Source: Phyto melanocephala
Lineage: Eukaryota > Arthropoda > Insecta > Diptera > Rhinophoridae
NCBI GenBank assembly: GCA_941918925.1
Contig: OW799234.1
Coordinates: 47,336,412 to 47,400,411, forward strand
Reading direction: 5' to 3'
Length of the DNA stretch: 64,000 bases
How positions within the stretch are numbered: the stretch's first letter is position 1; each line of letters begins with the position of its first letter. Made by a program: the position numbers and the translations under genes. The notes below the pieces were generated by a model. It ran no database searches. It saw nothing but the letters and a program-made list of their open reading frames with translations, and had not been told where the DNA came from. Of this stretch, positions 38,478 to 63,767 are shown in pieces.

Positions 38478-39638
38478 TTTATACCGTTCACCTGTGATGC
38501 CAAGGATATACATATATAGCTTTTTCATTACGTTTGTAATTGCTACAATATTAATTTCCGTCCCCATAAAGCCCATTACTAGGGAAGTCAATTAAATAAT
38601 GTCCAACTGTCCGTGTGCTAGTAGAAATCAACATGTCGCCAGACAACTTTCTGAGATATGAGTAAATAAACACGACTGTCTCTGTTTTTCCCCATATTTT
38701 CAACGTACAAACCAAACAAATTAATTGCCACTATTTATATAATATACACAATATACCTCTATAGATATTCGTAAAATTGTGGACAAATCTGTCAGTAATC
38801 GGAAAAGTTATATTAAAAAATTATTTTGACAATTATTTATATATTTTGATATAAGTATTATAAAAATATAAATTTCTCAAGCTCCTTAATAGTTCCTGGG
38901 CACTATAAAGACGCTAGATCACAAGTGCTAGGCTCGAAAATTATTACTGAAAAAAAAACAAAGAGTATGAAACTTATTGAGGTAAAAACATTGAAATACA
39001 ATTGCTTCGTGGCTTTTCCTATCTTTCCATCTTCTAGATAACTGACAGAGTAAATATGGGGTCTTGACTATCGTAGATTAAAAAAATGTTTAAAATCTAT
39101 ACTACAAAATGGCGTTAAATAAATTTATAAATTGATCGATTGATAACGATCGTCCCATAACTTTCTGAAATATGAGCAAATGAACACGTCTGCCTCTGTC
39201 TTTTCCCAAATTTTGCCAAAACAACTAAAATTTTTTAAAGTAAGGGTAATTTATAGAGACTGATGATACTATTTATAATTACGATATACCTTTAAGTAGA
39301 GATATTCTTGATTGATTTTGAATAAATCGATGATTAACCGACAAAGTTATAGGGAAAGAATTTTGTAAAATATATACATATATTTTTTAATATGTTAAGT
39401 TATTAAAGTTTCTGATTATTAATATTTAAAGATGTTACAGACACCTGAATAAAAGCTAAAGTCCCGAAAATTACTTCTAAGAAAATCTGACAAATCAATT
39501 TAAAACTAACTCAGATAAATGCACAAAAATACAAAAGATTCAATGTTATTCCTAAAATTTACAAACAAAAAACGATTTTTTTTCAACATGAAGGAACGAT
39601 GTAGGTATTAAAAGCAAGAGTTTTACTAGCAAAACATA

Positions 39639-40044
39639 CACACAGAAAAAAATCGCAATGTAAAATTAACATGAAAAAATGTTAATTTTAAGTCATTGTA
39701 AATTTTTGCAAAAAAATAACAAAAAAAATTTTATATTTACGTTGTTTCATATAAAATTAACAGTTAAACATGTTAATTTAAAATTGTTAACGTAAAAATG
39801 AAATTGTGCACATTAGTTTTAACCTTTTCCAAGGTAAAAATAACATTGGCTCATGTTAAATTTTTAAAATTAAATTTTTGTAGTAAAAATCAAAGTTTTT
39901 CAAGTAAAATTAACATTGGTTCATTTAAAAACAACATTAACCACTGTAAAATCAACACTACAATCAAATAAAAATAACAACTAAGAAGTGTAAAAATAAC
40001 ATGAAAAATGTAAAAATTAAATGAATTCATGTAAATAAATAAAA
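39639..40044. repeat. Left terminal and subterminal repeats of the 10.2-kb transposon
   Basis: After the CACACAGAAAAAAATC terminus, the motif TTAACATG and its complement CATGTTAA recur several times in about 400 bp, spaced irregularly among poly-A and poly-T. The same words fill 49480-49861. Clustered short motifs at both ends are usual for transposase binding sites; that role here is inference. Confidence 0.6.
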
Positions 40045-43000
40045 AACAAGTAAGAGCACTATATTCGGCTGTGCCGAATCTTTTATACCCACCACCAATT
40101 TTGTGTACATTTAAAGCACAATATTTATTATTTTGTTAATCGCTATGGAATAATCTCTTTATAATAAAATATGTATCACTTTCTTTGTAGAGGGTGGTTA
40201 AATTTTAAGGGCCCATGTTGAAGGTGAACCACACCTAAACTTCAACTTTTTTCATTTGACATTTCTCAATCTCAGACTAACTCAATTTGAACCGTGGAAA
40301 GATACGCAATCGATAGACGCTTTTAAATATTAAAGATTTTTATAAAAATGGGCGTTCAAATCAAAAAACATTTTGTGCACTTCGTGATTATTTTGGTCAA
40401 CAAAATCGTTCGAATTCGTCCACCATCGTGAGAATTGTAAAAAATATTTAAATGTCTGCAAAGCAGGTCTGTATGAAATGTGAAAGCATCTGTGAATGCC
40501 ATCTTAGTTCGTTGAATAGGAAACATTGCTGTTTTTCACGATAACGTGGCAAAAGAGCAAGCAACCTCGACTCATCATCGTGCCCAACAATTGAGCATCA
40601 ACAGAGTCATTGAAAATATGAACTATCGGATCGAAGTGTGCCGCCTAGGTTGGGGGGCTATTCGGCCGATATTTTGTTCCATACATAATTGAAGCATACA
40701 AATATTATCATTATAAAAATGAATGATAATAATTTCATAATAATTTTATTCAAAATCAACATAGTCCCTTAAAATTAAACCACCCATTATAACTTCGGTA
40801 TGCTAGTAAAATGTTTTCGTAAATTTAGTCTTTCAATGAAAGTGGCCGTTAAAATACGCGTGTCAATAAAGTTTCTGCTAGTAAACATAACTTAGATATT
40901 TCAATATAGTCCTTTAGTATTCCAAAATCGTTATTCATAGAGAAATTACATGAATTTAAGAGGCAAGTTTTATCTACGAAATAGTGCTAATTTATTTTTG
41001 TTATCTTATGTTCTCCTGAAGTTATGTTCTATTAAAAATGGGAATTTAGGAAAATTTTGACCTAAGTAAAAAAAATTATCCCTAAACATTATAAACAATT
41101 TATTTTAATGTACTGAGAATGTATATTTTGAATCACCGTATGATAATAATATAAAAATATGTATCACTTTCTTTGTAGAGGGTGGTTAAATTGTAAAGGT
41201 CACAGGGTGATTCAAAATATACATTCTCAGCATTTTTCTAAAACGGGAAATTTATTAGTAAGATTTTAATTTTTAAACTTCTATAACATTTTGTTTTTAA
41301 AAGATTTTCAAACGAAATAAGTTTTGTATAATTTTAAAATTTGTTAGCCATTAGTACATGAAAATAAATTGTTTATAATGTTTAGAGATATTTTTTTTTA
41401 CTTAGGTCAAAATTTTCCTAAATTCCCATTTTTAATAGAGCATAACTTCAGGAGAACATAAGCATAAGTTGTTAGCGTGCCATTTAGTAGTTGGTAGTAG
41501 AGTCATCTATCATATCACCTTTATCTTATATTTAGCTACAGTACAATAAATGGCGCAGTGTAAAATGAATAAATGCTAATGAATATGACTAATATATTTT
41601 TATAAAAATTTAAAGAAAAAAATGGGCGTGGCACATTTATCTTCCGTTATAATGAAGACTTTGACTAAAAAGCCATGTTTGCAAAATTTCAGAATCGTAC
41701 ATATAGTTTTGTCAGTTTTATTACGTTTTAAATTTCAAATATACACTGTGCGGTATAAATTTTCGTACATTTTTATAATTCATAGATTATAATTCATAGA
41801 TTTAAGCGATTTTCAGTTATATTCTTTTGACTCGATAAATATATATTCGAAGTTTCATGACTCTACGTTTATGCGTCTGGACACAATTCAATTTTATTCG
41901 ATGTGCGAAGGAAACGGTTTTTTCGACCTAGTCTTGCTTTACGAGCTATAGCTCTCTTCCTAATATTCCGATTTAGCCCACCACCATTTTTTTGGTGGCG
42001 GGTATAATTATTTCTAAACATTATAAACAATTTATTTTCATGTACTAATGGCTAACAAATTTTAAAATTATACAAAACTAGAAGCTAAAAAATCAAAATC
42101 TTACTAATAAATTTCCCGTTTTAGTAAAATACTTTAAATTTTTATTTTGAATCACCCTGTTCTCGGTAATATATGTATGTGAAATAAAGTTTCAATTTTT
42201 TCGCTCACGAGGTACACTAGTGTCTACATTCGAATGAAAAAATTAGTTTTGGCCACCTTCTCGTAGAATGGTCCACTGTGCGGCGGCCATTTCGCCGATA
42301 TTTTATTTCATACATAATTAAACCATACAAATATTATCATTATAAAAAGATATGATAATAATTTCCTAAATAATTTGTGTTTTATTTAAAATCACCAAAA
42401 TCGACCCTAAAATTTAGCCACCTTTTACAAAAGAGTAGATAGATAAAAATATAATTTAGTTAAAAAATGTATTTTAAATATTCAAATACATATTTTAAAT
42501 CTACTGATGCACATTTTTAGGATGTTATCAAAAATATTACTAGAGTCATCTAGTGTTCTACGTGATATTTAGCAAAGACATCATCCTCATTGTTTGCAAA
42601 ATGTAGTGGCGCCTTCAACAGATGTTGCCGTCTGGAATGAATAAATGCTAATGAAAATGACTAATATATTTTTATAAAAATTTAAAGAAAAAAATGGGCG
42701 TGGCACATTTATCTTCCGTTATAATGAAGACTTTGACTAAAAAGCCATGTTTGCAAAATTTCAGAATCGTACATATAGTTTTGTCAGTTTTATTACGTTT
42801 TAAATTTCAAATATACACTGTGCGGTATAAATTTTCGTACATTTTGATCTATAACTCCTTTTCTAATGCAGAGATTTAAGCAATGTTTGGGGAGAAATAT
42901 TCTTTTGACTCGAGAAAAATATATACGAAGTTTCATGACTCTACGTTTATGCGTCTGGACACAATTCCATTTTATTCGATGTTAGCAGGACACGGTTTTT

Positions 43001-43302
43001 TTGACCTATTTTTGCTTTACGAGCTATAACTCTCTTTCTAATATTCCGATTTTGCCCATTTTCAATACCAAACAAACCTAGTCTATAAGAAAGATTCTGG
43101 CAAAATTCGAGCCTTCTAGCTTTTTCGGTGCGACCTCTATCGTGCTTTCAACAGACGGACGGACATAGCTAGATCGTCATCAAATCAAACCCCGATTCAG
43201 AATATATATAATTTATGGGGTCTAAAATGTGTATTTCGATGTGTTACAAACGGAATGACAAAATGAATATACCCCACCATTTTTTTGGTGGCGGGTATAA
43301 AA
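40045..43302 (+). repeat. Composite of DINE-1-like copies nested in the transposon
   Basis: Begins ACAAGTAAGAGCACTATATT with palindrome ATTCGGCTGTGCCGAAT. GGTGGCGGGTATAA occurs twice, at about 42006 and 43302, so at least two copies or a partial duplication are present. A TIR element (41203-42159) is mixed in, and 41560-41800 is repeated nearly exactly at 42640-42860. Open frame 42694-42879 is repeat sequence. Confidence 0.7.
41203..42159. mobile_element. TIR element with CAGGGTGATTCAAAAT ends, containing DINE-like sequence
   Basis: Left end CAGGGTGATTCAAAATATAC and right end (reverse complement) CAGGGTGATTCAAAATAAAA are inverted. After each, the sequences read toward CGGGAAATTTATTAGTAAG in both arms. 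DINE-like sequence (about 41500-42006) fills the centre. A partial inverted copy lies at 40965-41145 and another fragment at 29344. No coding region; the superfamily is uncertain. Confidence 0.55.
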
Positions 43303-45419
43303 ACAAAAAGTGCCGCTTGTTCTAGAACAAAAAAAAAACAAACATTCTTATTGTGTGGTTAACAAAGTGAACAAATTTTATTCTTAAAAGTGTAATAATG
43401 GCTTACAATAATAACATAAATTTAGAAAATTTAGTGCAAAACCTTGGCTCTCTAGGAGAAACTATTAATTTCGAGAGCAACGTAGACGGAAATTCAATTT
43501 TAAATATTCCGGTGGCACAACATCAAACCTCCCAATTAGACGAGTTGTTGAAAACTTTTGATTTAAGTGAAGTTAAGCCTTATTTGACAAGTAAGTATAT
43601 TTTAATTTTTTTTTGTTTATTTCTCTAACAAAAACTAAATTATTGCTAAGGAGCTGAAATTACATTTGAAAGCCTTAAATACTTATCAAAAGAGGACATA
43701 AAGGAAGCTATACCACCCATTGGCCTTCGTGCTTGTTTCCGAGAAAAACTATTTATTTGGAGGAAAAGTGAGGTGAAGACAGATATTTAAATAATGTATT
43801 AATTTATTTTTGGCTAAATTTTCAATAATTTTTCTACAGTATGGCATTGATGACGATACCTTGTCTGAAACGATTGCCAATAAAGTAGTTTCTTGGTTAC
43901 AAAATCAATCTACTGTTAGCACAGCAAACACTCCGACTTCATCTTTTTGCACATCAGATGGGAGTTCCAAGCTATCTAAGGTAATTTAAAAGTTCAAGTT
44001 TTTGCTTACCATTATCAATCATTATTATTTTTTTCAGAGCCTTAAACTTATTTTAAAAAACAGCCTTAAAAGGAATGCTGTAACAAGTTTTTATGAAAAA
44101 AATTGTCAATTAACCGACTCGTTTCGTGGAGATTTAATAAATATTATATTGGAAGACATTTTTTATCGTGATGTTAAATTGTCCCCAAAAGATTTGCCAG
44201 CAATAGTAGATGAAATAATAGAAAACTTTTCTTGTGAAGTAAGAGTACGTATATAATATTTTCTAATTAACTACACACATTTTTTAAATATTACATATAA
44301 TCTTTCAGGAATACTACTTTATACCAAGAGGTAAGAAAGCGAGTCCTGCTGGTAAACTTTGGGACAAATATGTAAACCAAAGGGCAAAGCGTATGCGTTC
44401 ATCAGTAAAAATCCAAAATTGTGCAAAAGAATCAGATACGATTTCCCATAAAGATTGTTCTGAATTTGATGAATCAGTTTTGCTAGCCTTAAAAGCTTCT
44501 CTCTCAAGGGAGTTTTCTAACTGGGAAGAAGTAAAAGATAAGTGGCAAAGGACTTTTTTACGTAGACAAAGGAACTGAAGACATCTAAAAGTAATTATGA
44601 GTTTCTTAGCAATTGGCCACTTTATAAAAACAGCAAATCTGATCAGTTTTGGTTAACTGACCGAAGTAAGTATTGTAGCATTACTTTATTTTTATTCATT
44701 GCTAATTTAATTGATAACCCTTTTTACTAGGCTCTTAAGATTGTATACATGCTATTCTACTAAATGCAGTAATTCTACCAACGCACAGAGGAGTATTTGG
44801 CCTGAAAAGCTGACCAAAATTATTAAACGTGTTTTTTAAGTTAAAAGTTCTAGTTTTTTTATAGTTTTAGGTATAGTATGATATAGGAAACCTAGTAGCA
44901 GATTTTGAAAAAATTACACTGCGCAACAAAAGTACACTGCGCAACAAAAAAAAATTTTGTCTACCCTAGATATAAAAGTATGTGGACTATATGGACTCAT
45001 GCTCTCAATTCAAATCTGTTTTCCGTTTTTCTCTAGTACGTAAGGATTTCCTTTTAAAGGCGTGGCATATTTCACCCCCGAAATCGTTGGGTTGCCTAAA
45101 ATATTTTGTAATAACAGGAGGATTTTAATAACAGGAGGATTAAAAGATGCACCAGAAAATTCTCCTTAAACTAACGAAACCCATTTCTTTTCTATCTATT
45201 ACTATTTCGGAGTTATTAAAAATTTAATGGCGAAAAAAACAAATTTTCCTGCAAAATTCGTCAAATTTTTTGTTTTCAAAATACAATAAAAAAAAATTAA
45301 AAAATCAAAAAGTTTAAATTTTTAAGATTTTTTCAAAAGCCACATTCCCAAGGAATAAAAGACGGTATAGATAGTAAAACTCAATTAACAAATGTTGATT
45401 TTAAAGGTTTAATCTGCTG

Positions 45420-46168
45420 AAAACCCTTTTCAAGGTATATACATAAACGTGTTGCTGTGTGGTCGAGAAGAGCTTGGAGCTTCACTTCCGCTAATGGTTA
45501 AGTAACGGTTATGGCATCTTCATGGATAACATTTTTTTTTGCATTTTTAGTAATGAATAACATGGATACACATTTTTATTGGCATTGTATAAATTTCATA
45601 TTGCCTTTTCGTGAGCTCTGCATTTACAAAGAGTGCTAAAGCTCCTTCCGCTGAAAGTTTATTCACAGTGTTGACTTCAGAAGTTGTTAATGTAACTTGC
45701 GAATTCTTGCTTTTCTTGGGGATCTCGTTATATCCATTATTAATTTAGCCGCATCATTATGTCCTGCTGCTCTTTGACTCATGGATGCAGTAAATGTGAT
45801 CTTCTCTGTTGTTAATTGGTGACGAACATCTTCCGTTTTTCTCCGATTTGTTCTTTCATTAGCTTCATTAAATTCTTTTCGTGGTCGCCCTGAAGACGAA
45901 CTGTCAAATACTGGTATTGTTACAGTTCCTTTCAGCCATTTAGCGTTTGTGCTTAAAAAGCGGTCCCCTTTTCGTTGTGCCAAAATCTTTTAAAACAATT
46001 TTTGAAATTTTTTAAACACTGCTTCAGTAATAATATGTCACCATCCCCTTGACATTTTGAAATTTCGCTCAATTTTCTGACCAAAAAATTCAATTTCTCG
46101 TCAATGGTTCCAGCATTAGATTTAATCACTATTTGGAATAGCTGTAATCTTGTGTAAACTTGTTCCAT
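45420..46168 (-). pseudogene. Transib transposase remnant (RAG1 core relative)
   Basis: Two overlapping minus-strand frames (45953-46168 and 45687-45983) plus a third below them read as the N-terminal half of a Transib transposase. The order is FKRFWHNEK, SSGRPRKEFNEANERTNRRK, ITFTASMSQRAAGHNDAAKL, SAEGALALFVNAELTKRQYE, KKCYP, and AEVKLQALLDHTATRL. Frames break near 45965, after 45690 and around 45520. The catalytic DDE region downstream is absent. Transib transposases share ancestry with RAG1. The assignment rests on these blocks and the 5-bp target duplication. Confidence 0.75.
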
Positions 46169-46730
46169 GTAGACTCTAGAAGTTACAAAACGGTTTTGAT
46201 AAAGATTGTGTGCAATAACCCTTTATAAGTATTTTCAAGCGCAAGCTCTTATGCGTTAATTGGATGGTAGCCTGATATCTGCGTGCCCATAAATTTTTAT
46301 GTATGTACCTGTATTTATATTTTGTAAACTTATTTTAGTGATAAATGCTTGTAATAGTTATTCTTTTTAGGTGCCTATATTTATTTTTTTAACAAATAAT
46401 ATTTTGTAGAGCAGGTATATAAAAATATCCTTTATGGGGATGTGTGGGACATTCCCTTATAACTATTATCGATAATAAGTAATTTTTCAAATTTATAATA
46501 TAGGCACATATTAACATTGTAAAGTGTTTAAAGTGATGTGAATAGCAGTTGAAATCAATAATTCAAAATACATAAAACTTAATGACGATATAAATGTATA
46601 AGAAAAAGTGCCTGATGAGCAAAAATAGAAAAAATGTGAAAATTTAAAAAAATCGTCAAAAAAATTGGCGCAAACTTGCGCACACTTTTTTTTTGTTTCT
46701 AAAATTAGAGATTCCAAATTTTTTTGTGGT

Positions 46731-46776
46731 GTCAAACCAAAGACAATAGACTATAGTCTATTGTCTTTGGTCAAAC
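46731..46776. repeat. 32-bp perfect palindrome between 7-bp direct repeats
   Basis: The palindrome fills 46738-46769 with arms CAAAGACAATAGACTA and its exact complement, no loop. The heptamer GTCAAAC lies directly on each side (46731-46737 and 46770-46776). It sits inside the Transib insert. It looks like a minimal inverted-repeat insert with a 7-bp target duplication, or a fill-in product. Confidence 0.75.
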
Positions 46777-47438
46777 ATAATTCGTAGAGATGCTAACCTC
46801 ACTTTTAAAAACCTCATATAAAATCTCATATAACTTTCTTCCTGACTTTAGCAGGGTCTCAGAGCTACAAATCGCAACTTAAAGTCTTCAAAATTTACAA
46901 TATAATGTAGAATATTGTTGTCTGTCGAGCTGCGTACTTAGTTCTTAAGATTTCCTAAAATTCAGTTTTGCCTTTTTGGCCAGCTTTTCAGGTCAAATAC
47001 TCCTCTGTGCAACGGCACGATTTTCAGATAAAATTGGAAAAAACTCGAGGAAAATTTCTATAGCAGATGCTATCGAAGGCTTTATTGTACATCTTATTTC
47101 AATAAATAATTATGAAAAGGTAATATCTGAACTTCGTGAAAAGTATTACAATAGTGGCTTGACTGTTCAGCCTCTCTTAATAGTTGTAGGCCACAGTATA
47201 TATAATCTTGAGAAATTTTATGTCTATTTTGATAATACACTTTTAAAATTTGGATCGTTTTTACAATGCTTAGATACTTGCTTTAAAATTATTCACACAC
47301 TATCTTCGGAATACCCAAAATGTTGTCAAGGTCCATGGCTTTTTATACAAGAGTACTTTTATGAAATAAAACTAGCCATAAATTTCCAAGCATTTGCGCT
47401 TTACTTAACTTTTTAAATTTAAAATAATTATATACAAA

Positions 47439-49352
47439 ATGTTTACTTGCTTCGTATGTAATAAAAAACTACCACTTCTAAAAGACTTAATACAACATTA
47501 TCAAATTTATCACTTTCTGAATTCTACAAGTACCATACAGTGCAAACAAGACAGTTGTTCTCAAAAGTTTTCGTGTTTCAAGTCATTGAAAGCTCACATT
47601 AATCGCAAGCATTTAAATACTAATTCAAATCAAAATGTGGATAGCTTTAAACCCTTAACTACCTTGAGTTCTGCTAGCGTTCATAATATGTCTATTGATG
47701 ATAAAGATGCTACTTTAAATAGTACCTTCGTCACTGAATCTGAAGTAGTTTCAAAGATTGCTTACCTTAAAAACCAAGCATTTAATTTTTCATTATATTT
47801 GCACTCAGAACCAATGATGCCAAGAAAAGAAGTTGAGACTATTCAAAGTTTATTGTGCAACATATTTTCCAATGTCGAAGAATGCATTAGAGCAGTTTTA
47901 GGTAATAGAAATGTAAGCCCAAATTTAAATAATATTTTAAAGTTTTTAAAGAATCTATTCGCAGACATTTCGACAGAGTTTTTTAAACAAATAAAAGAAA
48001 AACAAATATATGAGGAACCCATGTCTTTCACCATTTCAAATCAAATTTCAGAACGCATTACGCATGGATATCCTGAATTAGACGTAAAAGAATTTACCTG
48101 CTGCTTTATGCCACTTAAATTTCAATTAAAAAAACTTTTTGAAATACCTGGGATCTTAGAAATAGCTTTTAATAATATAAAAGAGTCACTTTAGGGGAAA
48201 ATATTGACGAATTTTTTCAACGGAGATATTTTTAAATTACAAAAAACTCAATTCGAAAATAAACAAATTATTCCACTGTTTATATATTTTGATGGTCATG
48301 GAATAAATAATCCTTTAGGATCACATTCAAAATCTGTTTTAGCAGGATATTATAATTTGCCTTCTTTGCCACTGCAAGTTTTATCAAAGCTAGACTTCAT
48401 TTTCCATTTATGCTACATAAACTGTGCTGATATTAAAAAGTTTGGAAACGAACAGATATTCTATTCTTTAATTCAAGAATTAAAGTCTCTTGAAGATGAA
48501 GGACTCGAAATAAAAACTCCACTTAAAACACATAGAATATATATCACAGAAAGCACTTCAAACATTTAGCTTAAAAATGACGGCTCGAGAATTATGGACG
48601 TTAACAGATTTCATACTTCTCATAATTGGGGACTTAGTTCCTGAAACTAATCCGCATTGGAAGCTATTAATTTCTCTTGTAAAAATTATGGACAGACAGA
48701 GATTTAGATATGCTTAAATCAGTAGTCTATGAGCATAATCAAATCTATGTTGAACTCTATGAACCACTCAAACCAAAAGCTCATTTTTTACTGCACTATG
48801 TAACCTTTATATGGAGTTTAAGGTTTGAGGCAAAACATAAGGACACAAAAAGATATTGTAATAATATGAACTCTAGAGTTAATGTCCCTTTAACACTATG
48901 TAAAAAGCAGGAGTAAGATTTGCTCAACTTCTTTTGGGGGTTATGAAAATGTAATTCCAGAAACCCTTATATTAAATGATATTAATAAAATTAAACCCAT
49001 TCATGAATTTAGATATATTTTTGACCATTCGAAAATTATTTTTGATAATGTTGTATTTTATGATAAAATCATTTTCTCAGGAAGAGTGTATAAAAAAAAT
49101 TGTTACGTAACAATCCAGAGAGAATATTTAAGTTTGTACAAAATTTCCTATTTTGTAAAAGTTCAATCTAAAATTTATGTTTTATGTTATAAAGTTGAAA
49201 CTAGCAACTTTGATGATCATTTCCAATCATATGTAGTAGGCAACTTAAAGGATGAATTGATTTTAAAAGAATTCCATGAATTTACAAGCCCACGTTTATA
49301 TCTTTTCCCACTTAATAATGGTAAATTATATTTAAGAAATAAATTATTGTAA
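47439..49352 (+). pseudogene. Two-C2H2-finger transposon protein (NPLGS / LKPKAHFLLHY family), broken
   Basis: Begins 22 bp after the SAM gene. Two C2H2 fingers lie in the first 60 residues: C-x2-C-x12-H-x4-H, then C-x4-C-x12-H-x4-H. About 250 residues on come IPLFIYFDGHGINNPLGSHS and FGNEQIFYSLIQELKSLE, and later ELWTLTDFILLIIGDLVPE, LKPKAHFLLHY and LRFEAKHKDTK. I recall these blocks from repeated, unannotated proteins in animal genomes, but no enzyme family is assigned. Lesions: TAG at 48192-48194, stop and shift near 48567 with a probable deletion, TAA at 48715 with another shift, and a shift near 48915. The LHY-to-LRFEAKH segment looks internally deleted. An AATAAA lies at 49395. Confidence 0.75.
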
Positions 49353-49479
49353 ACTTTATTAAATGTATGTAAAATAACAAAATAATAAAAAATTAATAAA
49401 TAAGTAAAAAATAAAATATAAAGTGTTTTTACTAAACCAACAAGTTTTAACGTTTTTTTTAATATAGAAATCATTTCAA

Positions 49480-49861
49480 ATTAACATGAAATTTCATGTT
49501 ATTTCAACAGGGTTTCATGTTAATTCAATATTGCCATCACTTTAATACTAAATGATTTAATAGTAAATTTTAAAGTAAGTTCGTGTTGATTTAACATGAA
49601 ATTCATGTTATTTTTACATTTTATACTGTTATTTTTAAAGGATTTAAACATACTTTTTACATGATTATCCCTTAAATTTTACTAGAATAAAATGTTAATT
49701 CAACAACGTTTCCATTTGTTTTTACTTGAAAAAATATTAAGTTTTGTTTTATTGTACAATCATGTTAAATTAACATGAAACGCTAATGAAGCAAAATCAT
49801 TATTAAAAAATGTTAAATTAATCTTGTTTTAGTTGATTTTACAATGATTTTTTTTTGTGTG
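49480..49861. repeat. Right subterminal and terminal repeats of the 10.2-kb transposon
   Basis: Repeated CATGTTAAT, TTAACATGAAA and CATGTTATTT words occur about ten times, ending ACAATGATTTTTTTTTGTGT. The motif set mirrors 39639-40044 in inverted arrangement. Confidence 0.6.
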
Positions 49862-50242
49862 TAGGATAAAAAAAAATATAAAACCCAAGATGGCCGCGGC
49901 TATAAAATGGCATACAATTAGGTTATATATGGGCCAGGTCTATTAATTAAGAATATACCCACATCAATCACCACAATATTGGATATATGGCTTTTCCACA
50001 CAAACACAAAAATTGTAATTACAGCCATGCCCCTTCAACTTCCACAGTAAGGGTATCAAATGAAAGGGCTTGACTAGTAGAATACATCCAATAATATAAA
50101 AATTCAAAATCAAATATGGCAACACAAATAATAGAACAGAACAAAATCTTGGCTAAGCCACAATGTGGTCAGTATACCTACGTAGAACGTACATGATGGT
50201 GTTATCAGATTCGGCACGGCCGAAAATAGCATTCTCACCTGT

Positions 50243-50525: not shown

Positions 50526-52206
50526 TCAATCCTTTGGATGACGTTTAATACGGGCATAGGGACCAATTGAAGGATCCATTATAAATTCATAAATCACACG
50601 CATCCAACTTGTATGTTGGGGCATGGTCTCATAAAACTCTGGTGCTATCTTTTTCACTTGCGGCAAACGGGAGCCTGGCACAGCAGGAAAGTCATGATGT
50701 TCGTTGTGGTAGCCTAAATTAAATGAAATCCAATTCAAGGGACCATAATAGGAATACGTCTCAAATCCCTTAGCAAACATGAAGTGTTCGGATATCATAT
50801 GCGCGGCCATTGGATGCAAGCCCAATCCCAACATCGTACCTAATATTAAATACGTCATTGCTTTCCAACCGATAAAGTATACAACCAAAGCATCAAAAGT
50901 TATCTGAATTATGATATTGATAACTTCTAAACGTGTTAGTGGTTTTGAATTTACAATAAGAGGACGCAACGGAATATTAAAACATTGCAGACAAAGCCAA
51001 ATAAATTTGCCAAAACTTGTTTTAAACAATTTCGCCTCCAGCAATGTCGGTAAATCAACGTCAAACACATCATATCCTAAATATCTAAAAAATAAAAATA
51101 TTTATATTTTTGTTTATAGTATGATTTATACAAAATTAAAACAACTTATAAAAAATCAAAAAACTTAGTGCATTTATGTTTAAAAGCTGTCGTTTGTTTT
51201 TTTTAGCTTTTGAACATTTATAAACATTTGTAAACATTTCTGTGGCAAAAAGGAGTAACTGCTTAAATCGATATAAGCTAAAATTAAAATACAACTACTA
51301 TTATTATACCACAATTGCAATTTGAAACTTTATAGGAAGAAGCTATATCGCAAACACAATAAATCAATATTTTTTCAACAAACAATACCATTTGGAATAA
51401 TAATTTTTTTTAACCTAAAATTTAACTCATTATACGAAATCCGATATGCTCGATAATTAATACAGTAAGGCAGTAAAAAGGTTGTACAACAATAACTAGT
51501 ATATAAACTAGTATAAAAATATATACAATGAACTACTTTGGCGACCAGGCCCACCGAATATTAAAATCAAAAGTTTGAGATATGAGACAAAAGAACAGAT
51601 ATGTAACTTTTAACCCTACAGATAACGTATCTAGTACATGGTTAGAAATATACTAGTCTCTTTTAACTGGTATAGTTTTATACTAGTTAAAATACTATGA
51701 CTAACAGGTATCAAGAACTAGTTACAACACTTTCATTCAGTGGTTAGACAACACCCTTAAATTAAACACATTAAAATAATCTATTTATTAAGTTTTCTTT
51801 TTGCATACCTGTGATGTTCCAAATGATATTTTCGAAAAGATATTGACATGGGAATGCCAATCGGTAAATTGAATATAAAGCCTAATATACGATTGTGTCT
51901 TGGCCGACTGTGTCCAAAGGCCATATTATGTGAAGTTTCGTGAAGTGCAAACATCAGGCTAGAATTTAGGGTGCCACCAAAGAAATAAGCCATCCCTATT
52001 AACCAGGGCCATGAAAACTTCTTCACAATAAACAACACCAACATTTGTGCTAGCACCATCAATCCAGCTACCCACTTTAATTTAGGATCATGCCCAAAAA
52101 GTTTTTTGATTTGTGGATACTTTTTCAGAATAATTTTTCTGCGAGATTCATGTGATTGCTGCTTTTTATCCCATTCAAAGTCAGTTCTTGATACTCTCTT
52201 ATCCAT
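50526..52206 (-). CDS. ifc: Sphingolipid (dihydroceramide) delta-4 desaturase, infertile crescent ortholog
   Basis: The enzyme introduces the 4,5-trans double bond that turns dihydroceramide into ceramide, in the endoplasmic reticulum membrane; in Drosophila the gene is infertile crescent. Two exons: 52206-51809 and 51084-50526, with donor GTATGC and acceptor TTTTAG, summing to 957 nt, or 318 residues. I choose the ATG at 52206 (MDKRVSRTDFEW) because family members begin at this N-terminal motif; an in-frame ATG 10 codons upstream is less likely. The three histidine boxes of membrane desaturases are present: HETSH, HLEHH (just before the intron) and HNEHH. Hydrophobic segments lie between. 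The C-terminus ends KRHPKD. The gene is intact and not nested in any repeat. Confidence 0.97.
51085..51808 (-). other. Intron of the desaturase gene
   Basis: A 724-bp AT-rich intron splitting the codon for the arginine just after HLEHH (phase 2). It contains no gene or repeat I recognise; TAGTATAT and ACTAGT words recur at 51495-51720. Confidence 0.85.
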
Positions 52207-54130
52207 CGTTAAGAAAAAGAGGATAAATAATACCAAACAAACAAATTTCAGTGCAGGTTTTTTTTTATTTCTTTATAATACCACAAACATTTTCTAATGT
52301 TGTCAGAATATAGAATTAAACTAATTTTTTTTGAATAAATTTAAGGTGAATAAAATGTTTAATAGCAAACTTTATATTTAATAAAATTCAATTTATTTGC
52401 TGGTATTGTCGTTTGAATGGTCAAACTCTGATTAATTTTAAAAGTACACACAAGTACATATATGTATGTATGGAATTTAAAATTTTCGGTAGCCATTTAC
52501 CTGCAATCGATATTACAGTTAATAAGCAAATATTATGCAATGTACGAATGTATATGTTACAAAGAAATTTGTATACGTTTTAAAATCATCTAACATAAAC
52601 AAGAGTAATAAGCAATCCAGTAGAACATTAAGCTATGGTGGCCAGGGACTGACAACATGCGGTAGAAAATAGTTCTAACACTCTTATGTTAAGTTTTATT
52701 TGTTAAATATATGGACATGTTACATTGGCGAGTGTCAATCTAAATACAAAAAAAATAAATAAAAAATAATAAGATTTTTAAATAAATTTATTTTTTTTTT
52801 TAATTTTTTTTTAAATCAATTATTTTATTATTAATTATGCCCTTAATAATTACATTATTAATTATTAAAAAATAAAAATTAAATGAGTTTATCAGTTTTA
52901 AACTGAAATAGTTTAATGTGATTTTCAGAATGTTGTAAAAAATTTACCATTTATAAATGTTTGTCATTTCAAAATGGTGTAGCTTAATAGCTTTTAAATA
53001 TTTGGTTTATTAGTTTTTTAAAAATTTGGTAACGACAGTAATGACAACGACTGCAACACGTATTTCTGAGCACTTATAAAAATAGGACCATTACACATGT
53101 TTTCATTATATGAAAATCGATTGGTTTTATTTTGATTGTGAAAAAACTAAATATGAATTTTAATTTAAATTTAATATTTTAAGTCAAAAATTTATTTGAT
53201 AAAAGAGTACTGTTATTTAAATAAAATTTAATAGTTATAATTAAAAAATAATTAAAATTTTTATTACTTCTAAATAGTTCTAATTAATTTGATCACTTTT
53301 ATAATTAAAATTTGAAACTATTTTAATAAAGTATGTATTATATATTAATAACTCTAGTATTATGTATGTATATATAGTATTATCTAGCATCCAAAAGATG
53401 AAGTTCCTGTAAATTCAACAATATAATAGGTTTCGTAAGACGGCTTTAAATGACTCTAAATTTTACAAAGTGGAAGACTAAAAATACGTGGAACTATTAG
53501 AATATCTCCAATGTATACGACCCCACATTGCTACAGATTTACAAAAATATTTTATGAACCTTACGGTGATAATAAAAATGGCTTATTCTTTACTTTTTAT
53601 TAATAAGTATTCATAAATAACTTTACATTAATTATTGTTTCTTTCTGGTCTTGTCATTTAGATAATTTTGAAAATGTTGTAAGTCAATTCGACCTTCGAA
53701 AACAACATTTCCGTATGAGATGCACACAAAATTTGAAATCTATAATAAATTTTCATTAACTAAGATAAATTAAATCTAAAACATTAAATATTTTGAAACA
53801 AAAAACATATGATTTAGACTACTTTTATTGTTAAGGGCACATATGCAACTTGAGAATTCAAAAGCCATCTAAAATAAAGTTGAATATATTTACTAAAATC
53901 TTATAAAATTTTTTTTACTAAATGCCAACTAAAGGTCAATTTTGTGAATACCGTCAATAAAACCTCTTTATAATTAGAAAATCCGAAAAAAAAATTGCTC
54001 TTCAATTGAGGGTCTGTCTTGATGGACGCATAAGGCGTCCAAGTGTCTTAAGCATACTGGTGTAATAATGAGAAAAAATATGTTAAAGCTTAATTGCAAG
54101 TAAAAGTATTAATTTTTATTTTATTTAATA
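52207..54130. other. 5' flank of the desaturase gene, no further gene seen
   Basis: AT-rich sequence that should hold the desaturase promoter and 5' UTR, but I cannot identify a convincing TATA box or initiator. Short open frames have no domain. Confidence 0.5.
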
Positions 54131-62236: not shown

Positions 62237-63185
62237 TTTTTATAACCTTCACAGTATATGTAAGGGTATATATGTATAACATACATATGAATATACATTG
62301 TATGTATACATAGATCTGTTATTCTGAGTTAAGTTTTTACAATATTAATTTCCGAACCCATAAGGTATATGAATGTATATACTTTCTGAAAGATTATAAA
62401 CAAGTGAGCCAATTAAGCATTGTCCATCTGACCGACTGTCCGTATGTATGTTAAAATCAACTTTTTGAAGTCCCCAATATATCAGAAATATTCGGGAGCA
62501 GATCGGCTTTGGAAATCAGCATAATCGCCTCATAAAGGTCTGAGATATGAGCAAATAACTCGACTGTCTCTGTTTTACGCTTATTTTACCATAGAAAATA
62601 AAAGTTTTCATCTCTAGGATAATTTATATACACAATTGTTACTATTTGTAGATTTGGTATGGCCCTGAAGATATTTATCAAAAATTTTGGACAAATTAGT
62701 CACTAATCGGCAATGTTATAGGCAAAAATTATTTGATAAAATACATATATATTTTTTTGTATATATTAAAACTTTTTTAATTTAATATTTAAATTTTTTT
62801 TTAATTTTTGAATACGCTTAAGATACCAGCTTATAAGTCATAATCTCAAAAATTACTTTTAAGAAGAACTAGCAAATCGGTTTGAAGCCAACTGAGACAT
62901 AAGCACCAAAGTACCATTGCTTCAATGTTTTTTTCAAAAAAAACGGAAATAGATATTTTGTAGTTACTTTACAATCGAGACGGCCAATATGGGGATTAAA
63001 TAAAAGGGCTTGAGTATTAAAAAAAATCTAAGATAGCATCTAAGATTAAAATCCGAAAACATGAGTCAAATATAATAGTTAAGTATTTATCCCCTTTAAC
63101 TCCAACAATCAAATAAAAGGGCTTGACCAGTACAATGTAGTAAACTATTGTAAAAGAGTGAAGTCCAAGATGGCGTCGGAAATAA

Positions 63186-63217
<32 letters not shown>

Positions 63218-63767
63218 AAATCTTTAATGGACTCCATTACAAAATGGGGTACTAAAAATTTATAAATGGATAAAGTCTAGTTATTAAAAATATACGCACT
63301 CTAACCGCCTCAATAATGATATCAAACGAAACGGATGGAGCAGAATAATAGAGTAAACAATGAAAAAGTGAAAATTCAATACGGCATCTGAAATAAAGTG
63401 GTGGATACATGAGTAAAATATTGTAATTATGGCTTTGCCCTCTTCAACTCCCACAATATTGGTAGAGAATACAGTAAACTGTAAAAAATTTAAAATCTTA
63501 GATGACACACTAAACAAAATTGCGGATAAGTTTTTCTCTCAAACACATAAATATTGGTATCAAATGAAAGAGCTTGACTTGTAGAATGCAACCAACTATG
63601 TAAAAATTTTACCTCAAGGAAGACGTTGAAAATAAAACAAAAAAGCATATAATATTAAATCTGAAACGTAGGCTAAGCTACGAAGTGGTCATTATATATA
63701 CATGATCGTAATAGTAGACAGTGATAAATAATAGATTCCGCACGGGCGAATATAGCATTCTTGCTTG
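62237..63767 (-). repeat. DINE-like repeat, second subfamily, near complete
   Basis: Runs from TTTTTATAACCTTCAC to GATTCCGCACGGGCGAATAT and GCATTCTTGCTTG. It includes CAAGATGGCGTCGGAAATAA and AAGGGCTTGACCAGTA phrases matched in 49880-50110, and an (AT)n tract at about 63188-63212. It is the best uninterrupted reference for the copy split at 39638/49862. Confidence 0.65.

Follow-up and report, generated by a model that had tools for sequence, protein, structure and literature searches.

An inactivated two-gene DNA transposon in the fly Phyto melanocephala with a probable RAG1-type transposase and a likely SAM-domain partner

The transposons closest to the element described here belong to the CMCT (CACTA-Transib-RAG1) clade, which has CA..TG ends and 2-5 bp target duplications and is defined by motifs that are also found in relatives of the ORF2 protein discussed below (Kojima 2025, PMC12730594). 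The same source describes ESTA as an EnSpm-like group of rust fungi with TA duplications, RAG1 similarity and TET/JBP genes, and gives the Plavaka termini as TGT..ACA or CATCA..TGATG (PMC12730594); elsewhere, Transposase_21 is linked to CACTA and DUF1258 to Mirage (PMC3985635). Here we analyzed a window, meaning a whole stretch of 64,000 nucleotides, of the genome of Phyto melanocephala (C2:47336412-47400411; 740 Mb on 9 contigs were searched), in which positions 39639 to 49861 hold a unit with two genes, open reading frame 1 (ORF1), encoding a likely SAM-domain protein, and ORF2, encoding a protein with C2H2 fingers. We conclude that this unit is very probably a cut-and-paste DNA transposon with two genes, present here as an inactivated copy, and that ORF2 is its RAG1-type transposase.

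A first-pass annotation of this DNA had proposed inverted CACACA-type ends, a flanking TA, subterminal repeats shared by both ends and a host repeat continuing on both sides, and our analysis bore these out with borders exact to the base. The element has the form TA-CACACA...TGTGTG-TA; the left border reads TA followed by CACACAGAAAAAAATCGCAATGTAAAATTAACAT and the right one, on the reverse complement, TA followed by CACACAAAAAAAAATCATTGTAAAATCAACT, the outermost letters being CACACAGAAAAAAATCGCAATG... after the left TA and ...TACAATGATTTTTTTTTGTGTG before the right TA. The gapped alignment of the two termini scored 19, a value equalled or bettered by 1 in 20,000 random window pairs, and ATGTAAAATTAACATG-type repeats in both orientations are common to the two ends. 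The host repeat occupies 39149-39638 on the left and 49864-50236 on the right, and diverged copies of it at 62524-63761 (+) and 58724-57995 (-) match both flanks in pieces. One alignment, at 58493-58273 (60% over 227 columns), spans the joined flanks with a single TA, which is an unfilled junction in a copy of the host repeat. Several copies of this diverged host repeat in the window end in a ATTCGGCACGGCCGAA-type palindrome.

39639..49861, + strand: whole element in its present state, 10,223 bp including two later insertions; the genome has further copies of its ends, flanked by 2-bp duplications
39637..39638: TA, the left member of the 2-bp target duplication
39639..39672, + strand: left terminal inverted repeat, CACACAGAAAAAAAT...
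39673..40046: subterminal region on the left, holding ATGTAAAATTAACATG-type repeats in both orientations; homology to 6 of 6 compared copies stops at 40030-40051
49353..49861: right untranslated and subterminal region
49830..49861, - strand: right terminal inverted repeat
49862..49863: TA, the right member of the 2-bp target duplication

The first 412 bases (left end) were used as a genome query and gave 27 matches; 20 of these places were fetched, amounting to 19 separate DNA pieces as loci L031 and L032 overlap. Other copies with both ends, for which the first-pass annotation had suggested a search, do exist, the right end being found in the same orientation, whole or partial, in 16 of the 20 loci (E<=1e-8; partial in L033, split in three in L027); co-occurrence was judged from copies found via the left end and via ORF2. 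We tabulated 16 end pairs, window included, and kept the 11 with both exact termini; L023, L026, L027, L028 and L039 were dropped because a terminus was missing or off. These 11 copies lie in unrelated flanking DNA and hardly vary in the outermost dozen bases at either end. Equal 2-bp flanks were observed in 10 copies: TA in eight (window, L021, L030, L032, L034, L035, L036 and L038), TG in L024 and AA in L037. The chance of a dinucleotide match by composition is 0.09, which gives a probability of about 4e-10 for at least 10 equal flanks in 11; three equal flanking bases were seen in none of the 10. Since TG and AA are present as direct copies, the equal flanks are a duplicated target rather than a palindromic lengthening of the ends. 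The annotation had proposed a test for shared TA flanks and the same gene pair: TA was found in 8 of 11 copies and the pair in 8 of 20 loci, with TG, AA and AA/TA at the remaining flanks.

The annotation had also stated that the unit encloses no known transposase; this does not hold, because ORF2 itself is related to DDE transposases of the CACTA/Plavaka/RAG1 type. Among 47 ORF2 relatives, counting rows with residues at each site, the first aspartate is kept in 47 of 47, the second in 47 of 47, C(2)C in 46 of 46, and H(3)H with the glutamate in 40 of 40. The hidden RNase H-like fold whose search had been suggested for ORF2 homologs is present in the predicted model of one relative, P0001, as a RAG1-core RNase H fold, together with the conserved triad; the ORF2 relatives are thus predicted to have an RNase H-like nuclease fold of RAG1 type.

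47439..49352, + strand: ORF2, DDE transposase gene disrupted by one stop, frameshifts and an internal deletion
47439..47618, + strand: two C2H2 fingers; weak zf-C2H2 matches, under cut-off
48291..48293, + strand: first catalytic aspartate (FIYFDGHGINNPLGSH), in a column that is D in 47 of 47 relatives
48540..48549, + strand: deletion junction; the lost part, with the second Asp, C(2)C and MHD, corresponds to residues 365-511 of P0001
48782..48829, + strand: KAHFLLHY ... RFEAKH, holding H(3)H and the catalytic glutamate; all 40 relatives with residues at this place carry H, H and E
48894..49352, + strand: C-terminal BAH-like domain

Transposase_21 and DUF4218 matches were found among the relatives; moreover, zf-C2H2 matched 12 of the 47 and the Plavaka family PF18759 matched 7 of the 47 at E<=0.1, 1 of 10 relatives scanned singly lying above the curated PF18759 cut-off. 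DUF1258 (PF06869) was not among the 24 families listed for the 47 relatives at E<=0.1. In the VIA list for the P0001 model the absence of a family does not exclude that family. PDB sequence searches with ORF2 returned C2H2 proteins (the best 60 of 161 matches, and three in another search), and no relative was found in viral contigs scanned with P0001 and P0041 or in phage records scanned with P0001. Pfam rows such as 'IL22' and 'FOXP-CC' were judged to be chance or finger-composition matches.

It could be argued that this is a plain animal EnSpm/CACTA family whose second product, ORF1, is TNPA-like and which Repbase may already list under that name. We consider this less likely than not: the Transposase_21 and DUF4218 matches, the CAC...GTG ends, the subterminal repeats and the second gene all agree with it, but the duplications are of 2 bp and not 3 bp in 10 of 10 equal-flank copies, and neither C2H2 and BAH-like domains nor a SAM partner are known in EnSpm.

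With ORF2 as a RAG1-type transposase, its N-terminal C2H2 pair and N-terminal domain would most likely recognise the terminal and subterminal repeats; the RNase H core, with its helical insertion, D/D/E triad and C(2)C/H(3)H zinc site, would cut the CAC...GTG ends and join them, in most cases at TA, to a target cut with a 2-bp stagger; and the C-terminal BAH-like domain probably reads chromatin. RAG and Transib cutting passes through hairpins; a hairpin step, dimerisation and zinc binding may all occur here. The SAM protein of ORF1 would most likely be an accessory factor assembling on the ends or on the transposase, a role suggested by its linkage to ORF2, where all the catalytic features lie.

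ORF1 sequence was detected in 18 of the 20 fetched loci and ORF2 sequence in 8 (7 separate DNA pieces); all eight ORF2-bearing loci also hold ORF1, in the order left end, ORF1, ORF2 on one strand, and the right end closes each of them except L031, whose fetched stretch stops earlier. The ends of these eight loci are 68-97% alike to those of the window, and a repeat search of the 20 loci with all relatives as queries gave the same picture. The two adjacent same-strand genes of the first-pass annotation are confirmed, both of them broken in the window. The analysis also supports a DNA transposon that has defined ends, duplicates 2 bp of target (mostly TA) and recurrently pairs a SAM gene with a C2H2 gene. 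Of note, in L031/L032 (the same DNA) and in L037 the SAM exon is followed within ~50 bp by the H(3)H/Glu region of ORF2, with stops; this layout is apparently a shared internal deletion, and the derivative was perhaps once repressor-like.

Searching the genome with P0001 gave at least 59 ORF2 matches (57 of 194 candidates scored), nine of which run without a stop from P0001 residue 37 or earlier to residue 775 or later. Three of these nine were fetched (L041-L043, on two contigs). They are mutually 99.1-99.8% identical over 5.4-6.5 kb and carry open ORF2 frames of 849 codons with 1-3 residue differences and every catalytic residue kept, with ORF1 exons just upstream. Their identity breaks sharply at ...TTTTTTTGAGTG, followed by CA, TA and CA. 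The three sisters stand further apart from the window copy and indicate recent movement of the group.

Several observations weigh against the reading of the unit as a copy of such a transposon. Most end-sharing copies are internally deleted, P0001 finding ORF2 in 8 of 20 loci only, and none of the copies recovered was complete, with exact termini on both sides and both genes intact. The sister copies have a CAC-type right end, GAGTG (CACTCA...), that is related to but different from that of the window, and no left end was reached when L041-L043 were followed upstream for ~9.8-11.7 kb from the right end; in its ORF1 region L042 moreover holds a later insertion of ~2.06 kb (~308-2371 of the reversed locus) that L041 and L043 lack. 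The flanks of L022 are unequal (AA/TA; 1 of 11 copies). As to the proteins, the predicted fold is that of P0001, which is 36% identical to the window ORF2 over residues 1-364; P0001 itself matches 0 of 3 transposase families in Pfam, and PF18759 is not matched at E<=0.1 by 40 of the 47 relatives. The predicted ORF1 model is poor (58.6 on the pLDDT confidence scale), and Foldseek with it listed many weak SAM rows, none of its matches reaching E<=0.001.

That no whole ORF2 was found in the window copy or in the 20 fetched end-sharing loci would also suit a non-autonomous element, with ends derived from another transposon and the SAM/C2H2 pair as captured passengers mobilised in trans. We hold this to be very improbable, as the ORF2 relatives have the predicted RAG1-type fold and the conserved triad, the order left end-ORF1-ORF2 recurs in 8 of 20 loci with ends 68-97% alike to those of the window, and the open-ORF2 sister copies share both the gene pair and a CAC-type right end.

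ORF1 was placed from ORF lists, frames, tblastn and nine relatives (P0048-P0056), which are fly proteins plus one distant moth protein; the best are from the flies Cochliomyia, Eupeodes, Lucilia, Eurosta and Drosophila. A profile search for further relatives, in which the 7,996 candidates sharing most words were scored, added 2 proteins. Exon ends were set by eye from splice-like GT/AG.

43398..47416, + strand: ORF1, broken SAM-domain gene
43398-43590, 43651-43772, 43840-43980, 44038-44238, 44309-44610, 44730-44783 plus 47015-47416, + strand: approximate ORF1 exons

The SAM assignment is likely: SAM_2 matched P0050 at 7.6e-4, marginally short of its cut-off, and P0051 at 0.12, and SAM domains were the top, weak hits of a PDB profile search (5 of 7 rows, best E 0.13). 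DUF4769 matched 3 of the 9 relatives, 2 of them above its cut-off. No catalytic domain was detected in these nine, which gave SAM_1/SAM_2, DUF4769 and weak scattered rows only, and none had a Kelch or PHD match at E<=1. P0048 (Cochliomyia hominivorax) is ORF1-like with ~200 extra N-terminal residues, possibly a gene-model fusion or a host gene with ORF1. The lack of a catalytic domain, together with the fact that SAM domains commonly oligomerise, would fit a SAM protein that stands outside the transposition machinery, as a regulator or a silencing antagonist aiding persistence of the element. We take this possibility seriously without favouring it, given that all eight ORF2-bearing loci hold ORF1 upstream on the same strand.

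The window copy is dead: its ORF2 is without the second aspartate and C(2)C, and both genes are broken. The 10.2-kb unit of the first-pass annotation was right in its bounds, but its length is inflated by two insertions.

40047..43298: later insertion(s) of host repeats, absent from other copies compared
44784..47009: nested element, CACAGAGG...CCTCTGTG, with 37-bp inverted ends, splitting the last ORF1 exon (~2.2 kb)

Position ~40046 joins ~43299 directly in L021, L022, L024, L025, L028 and L029 (6 of 6 compared, of 20 fetched), so the window copy gained ~3.25 kb by later insertion; this DNA holds two 233-bp copies, 96% identical, plus inverted copies of up to 110 bp. The nested element is bounded by inverted ends CACAGAGGAGTATTTGGCC, and its 5-bp duplication CAACG lies at 44779-44783 and 47010-47014; we presume it, from the 5-bp duplication and CAC ends alone, to be Transib-like, and minus-strand frames lie within it at 45687-46222. 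With 3.25 and 2.2 kb inserted, the 10.2 kb therefore consist of a roughly 4.7-kb remnant plus inserts. Outside the element, a neighbouring host gene at 50526-52272 (-) resembles, from frame reading, a fatty-acid/sphingolipid delta-4 desaturase.

Several animals have ORF2-type proteins under the labels 'uncharacterized' or 'C2H2-type'; these are RAG1/CACTA-type transposases, and in Phyto melanocephala they have ORF1-type proteins as genomic neighbours; the ends, the 2-bp duplication rule and the motifs allow annotation and masking of the family. Tentatively, and with somewhat less than even confidence, we propose that the element represents a distinct and recently mobile animal lineage, in which an obligatory SAM partner accompanies a RAG1-fold transposase that carries C2H2 fingers and a BAH-like reader of its own. 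Such a lineage would amount to a second RAG-type system of two proteins, arisen independently and present in insects and, by its ORF2, in a sea cucumber and a fish, and would account for SAM-domain and C2H2 proteins that occur in many copies in animal genomes and are unassigned. With near-identical copies in a living fly, a RAG1-fold transposase that has a non-RAG2 partner and a built-in domain resembling chromatin readers would allow studies of two-protein RAG-type recombination outside the RAG1-RAG2 line. Neither a transposon with a SAM-domain partner nor a BAH-bearing RAG1-fold transposase came up in searches of the open literature.

From a comparison with EnSpm, Plavaka and Transib, we call the element a new variant within the CMCT clade, because it has the ends and the duplication of that clade and, in its ORF2 relatives, the catalytic motifs, while its target duplication is neither the 3 bp of EnSpm nor the 5 bp of Transib and its termini are not those of Plavaka. 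It resembles ESTA, compared by description only, in clade, RAG1 similarity, C(2)C and H(3-4)H, and TA duplication (8 of 10 equal-flank copies here, TG and AA in the others); ESTA differs in being fungal and in its TET/JBP genes, and no SAM partner is mentioned in section 3.1.6 of its description. As to Plavaka, its family PF18759 matches 7 of the 47 ORF2 relatives at E<=0.1 and 2-bp duplications occur in it too; the termini here are CACACA..TGTGTG instead of the TGT..ACA or CATCA..TGATG given for Plavaka. Subterminal repeats and two genes are general features of CACTA elements. The present element agrees with EnSpm/CACTA in both, in its CAC..GTG ends and in the Transposase_21 and DUF4218 matches, and departs from it in the 2-bp instead of 3-bp duplication, the C2H2 N-terminus, the BAH-like C-terminus and the SAM partner. 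Transib and RAG-type elements have CAC ends and 5-bp duplications, the RAG2 partner being a Kelch/PHD protein. Our element shares with Transib, RAG1-RAG2 and ProtoRAG the predicted fold of the transposase core, the C(2)C/H(3-4)H site and the CAC ends, and with RAG and ProtoRAG a partner gene beside the transposase gene; it differs from Transib and RAG in its 2-bp duplication and in having a SAM protein where RAG2 stands.
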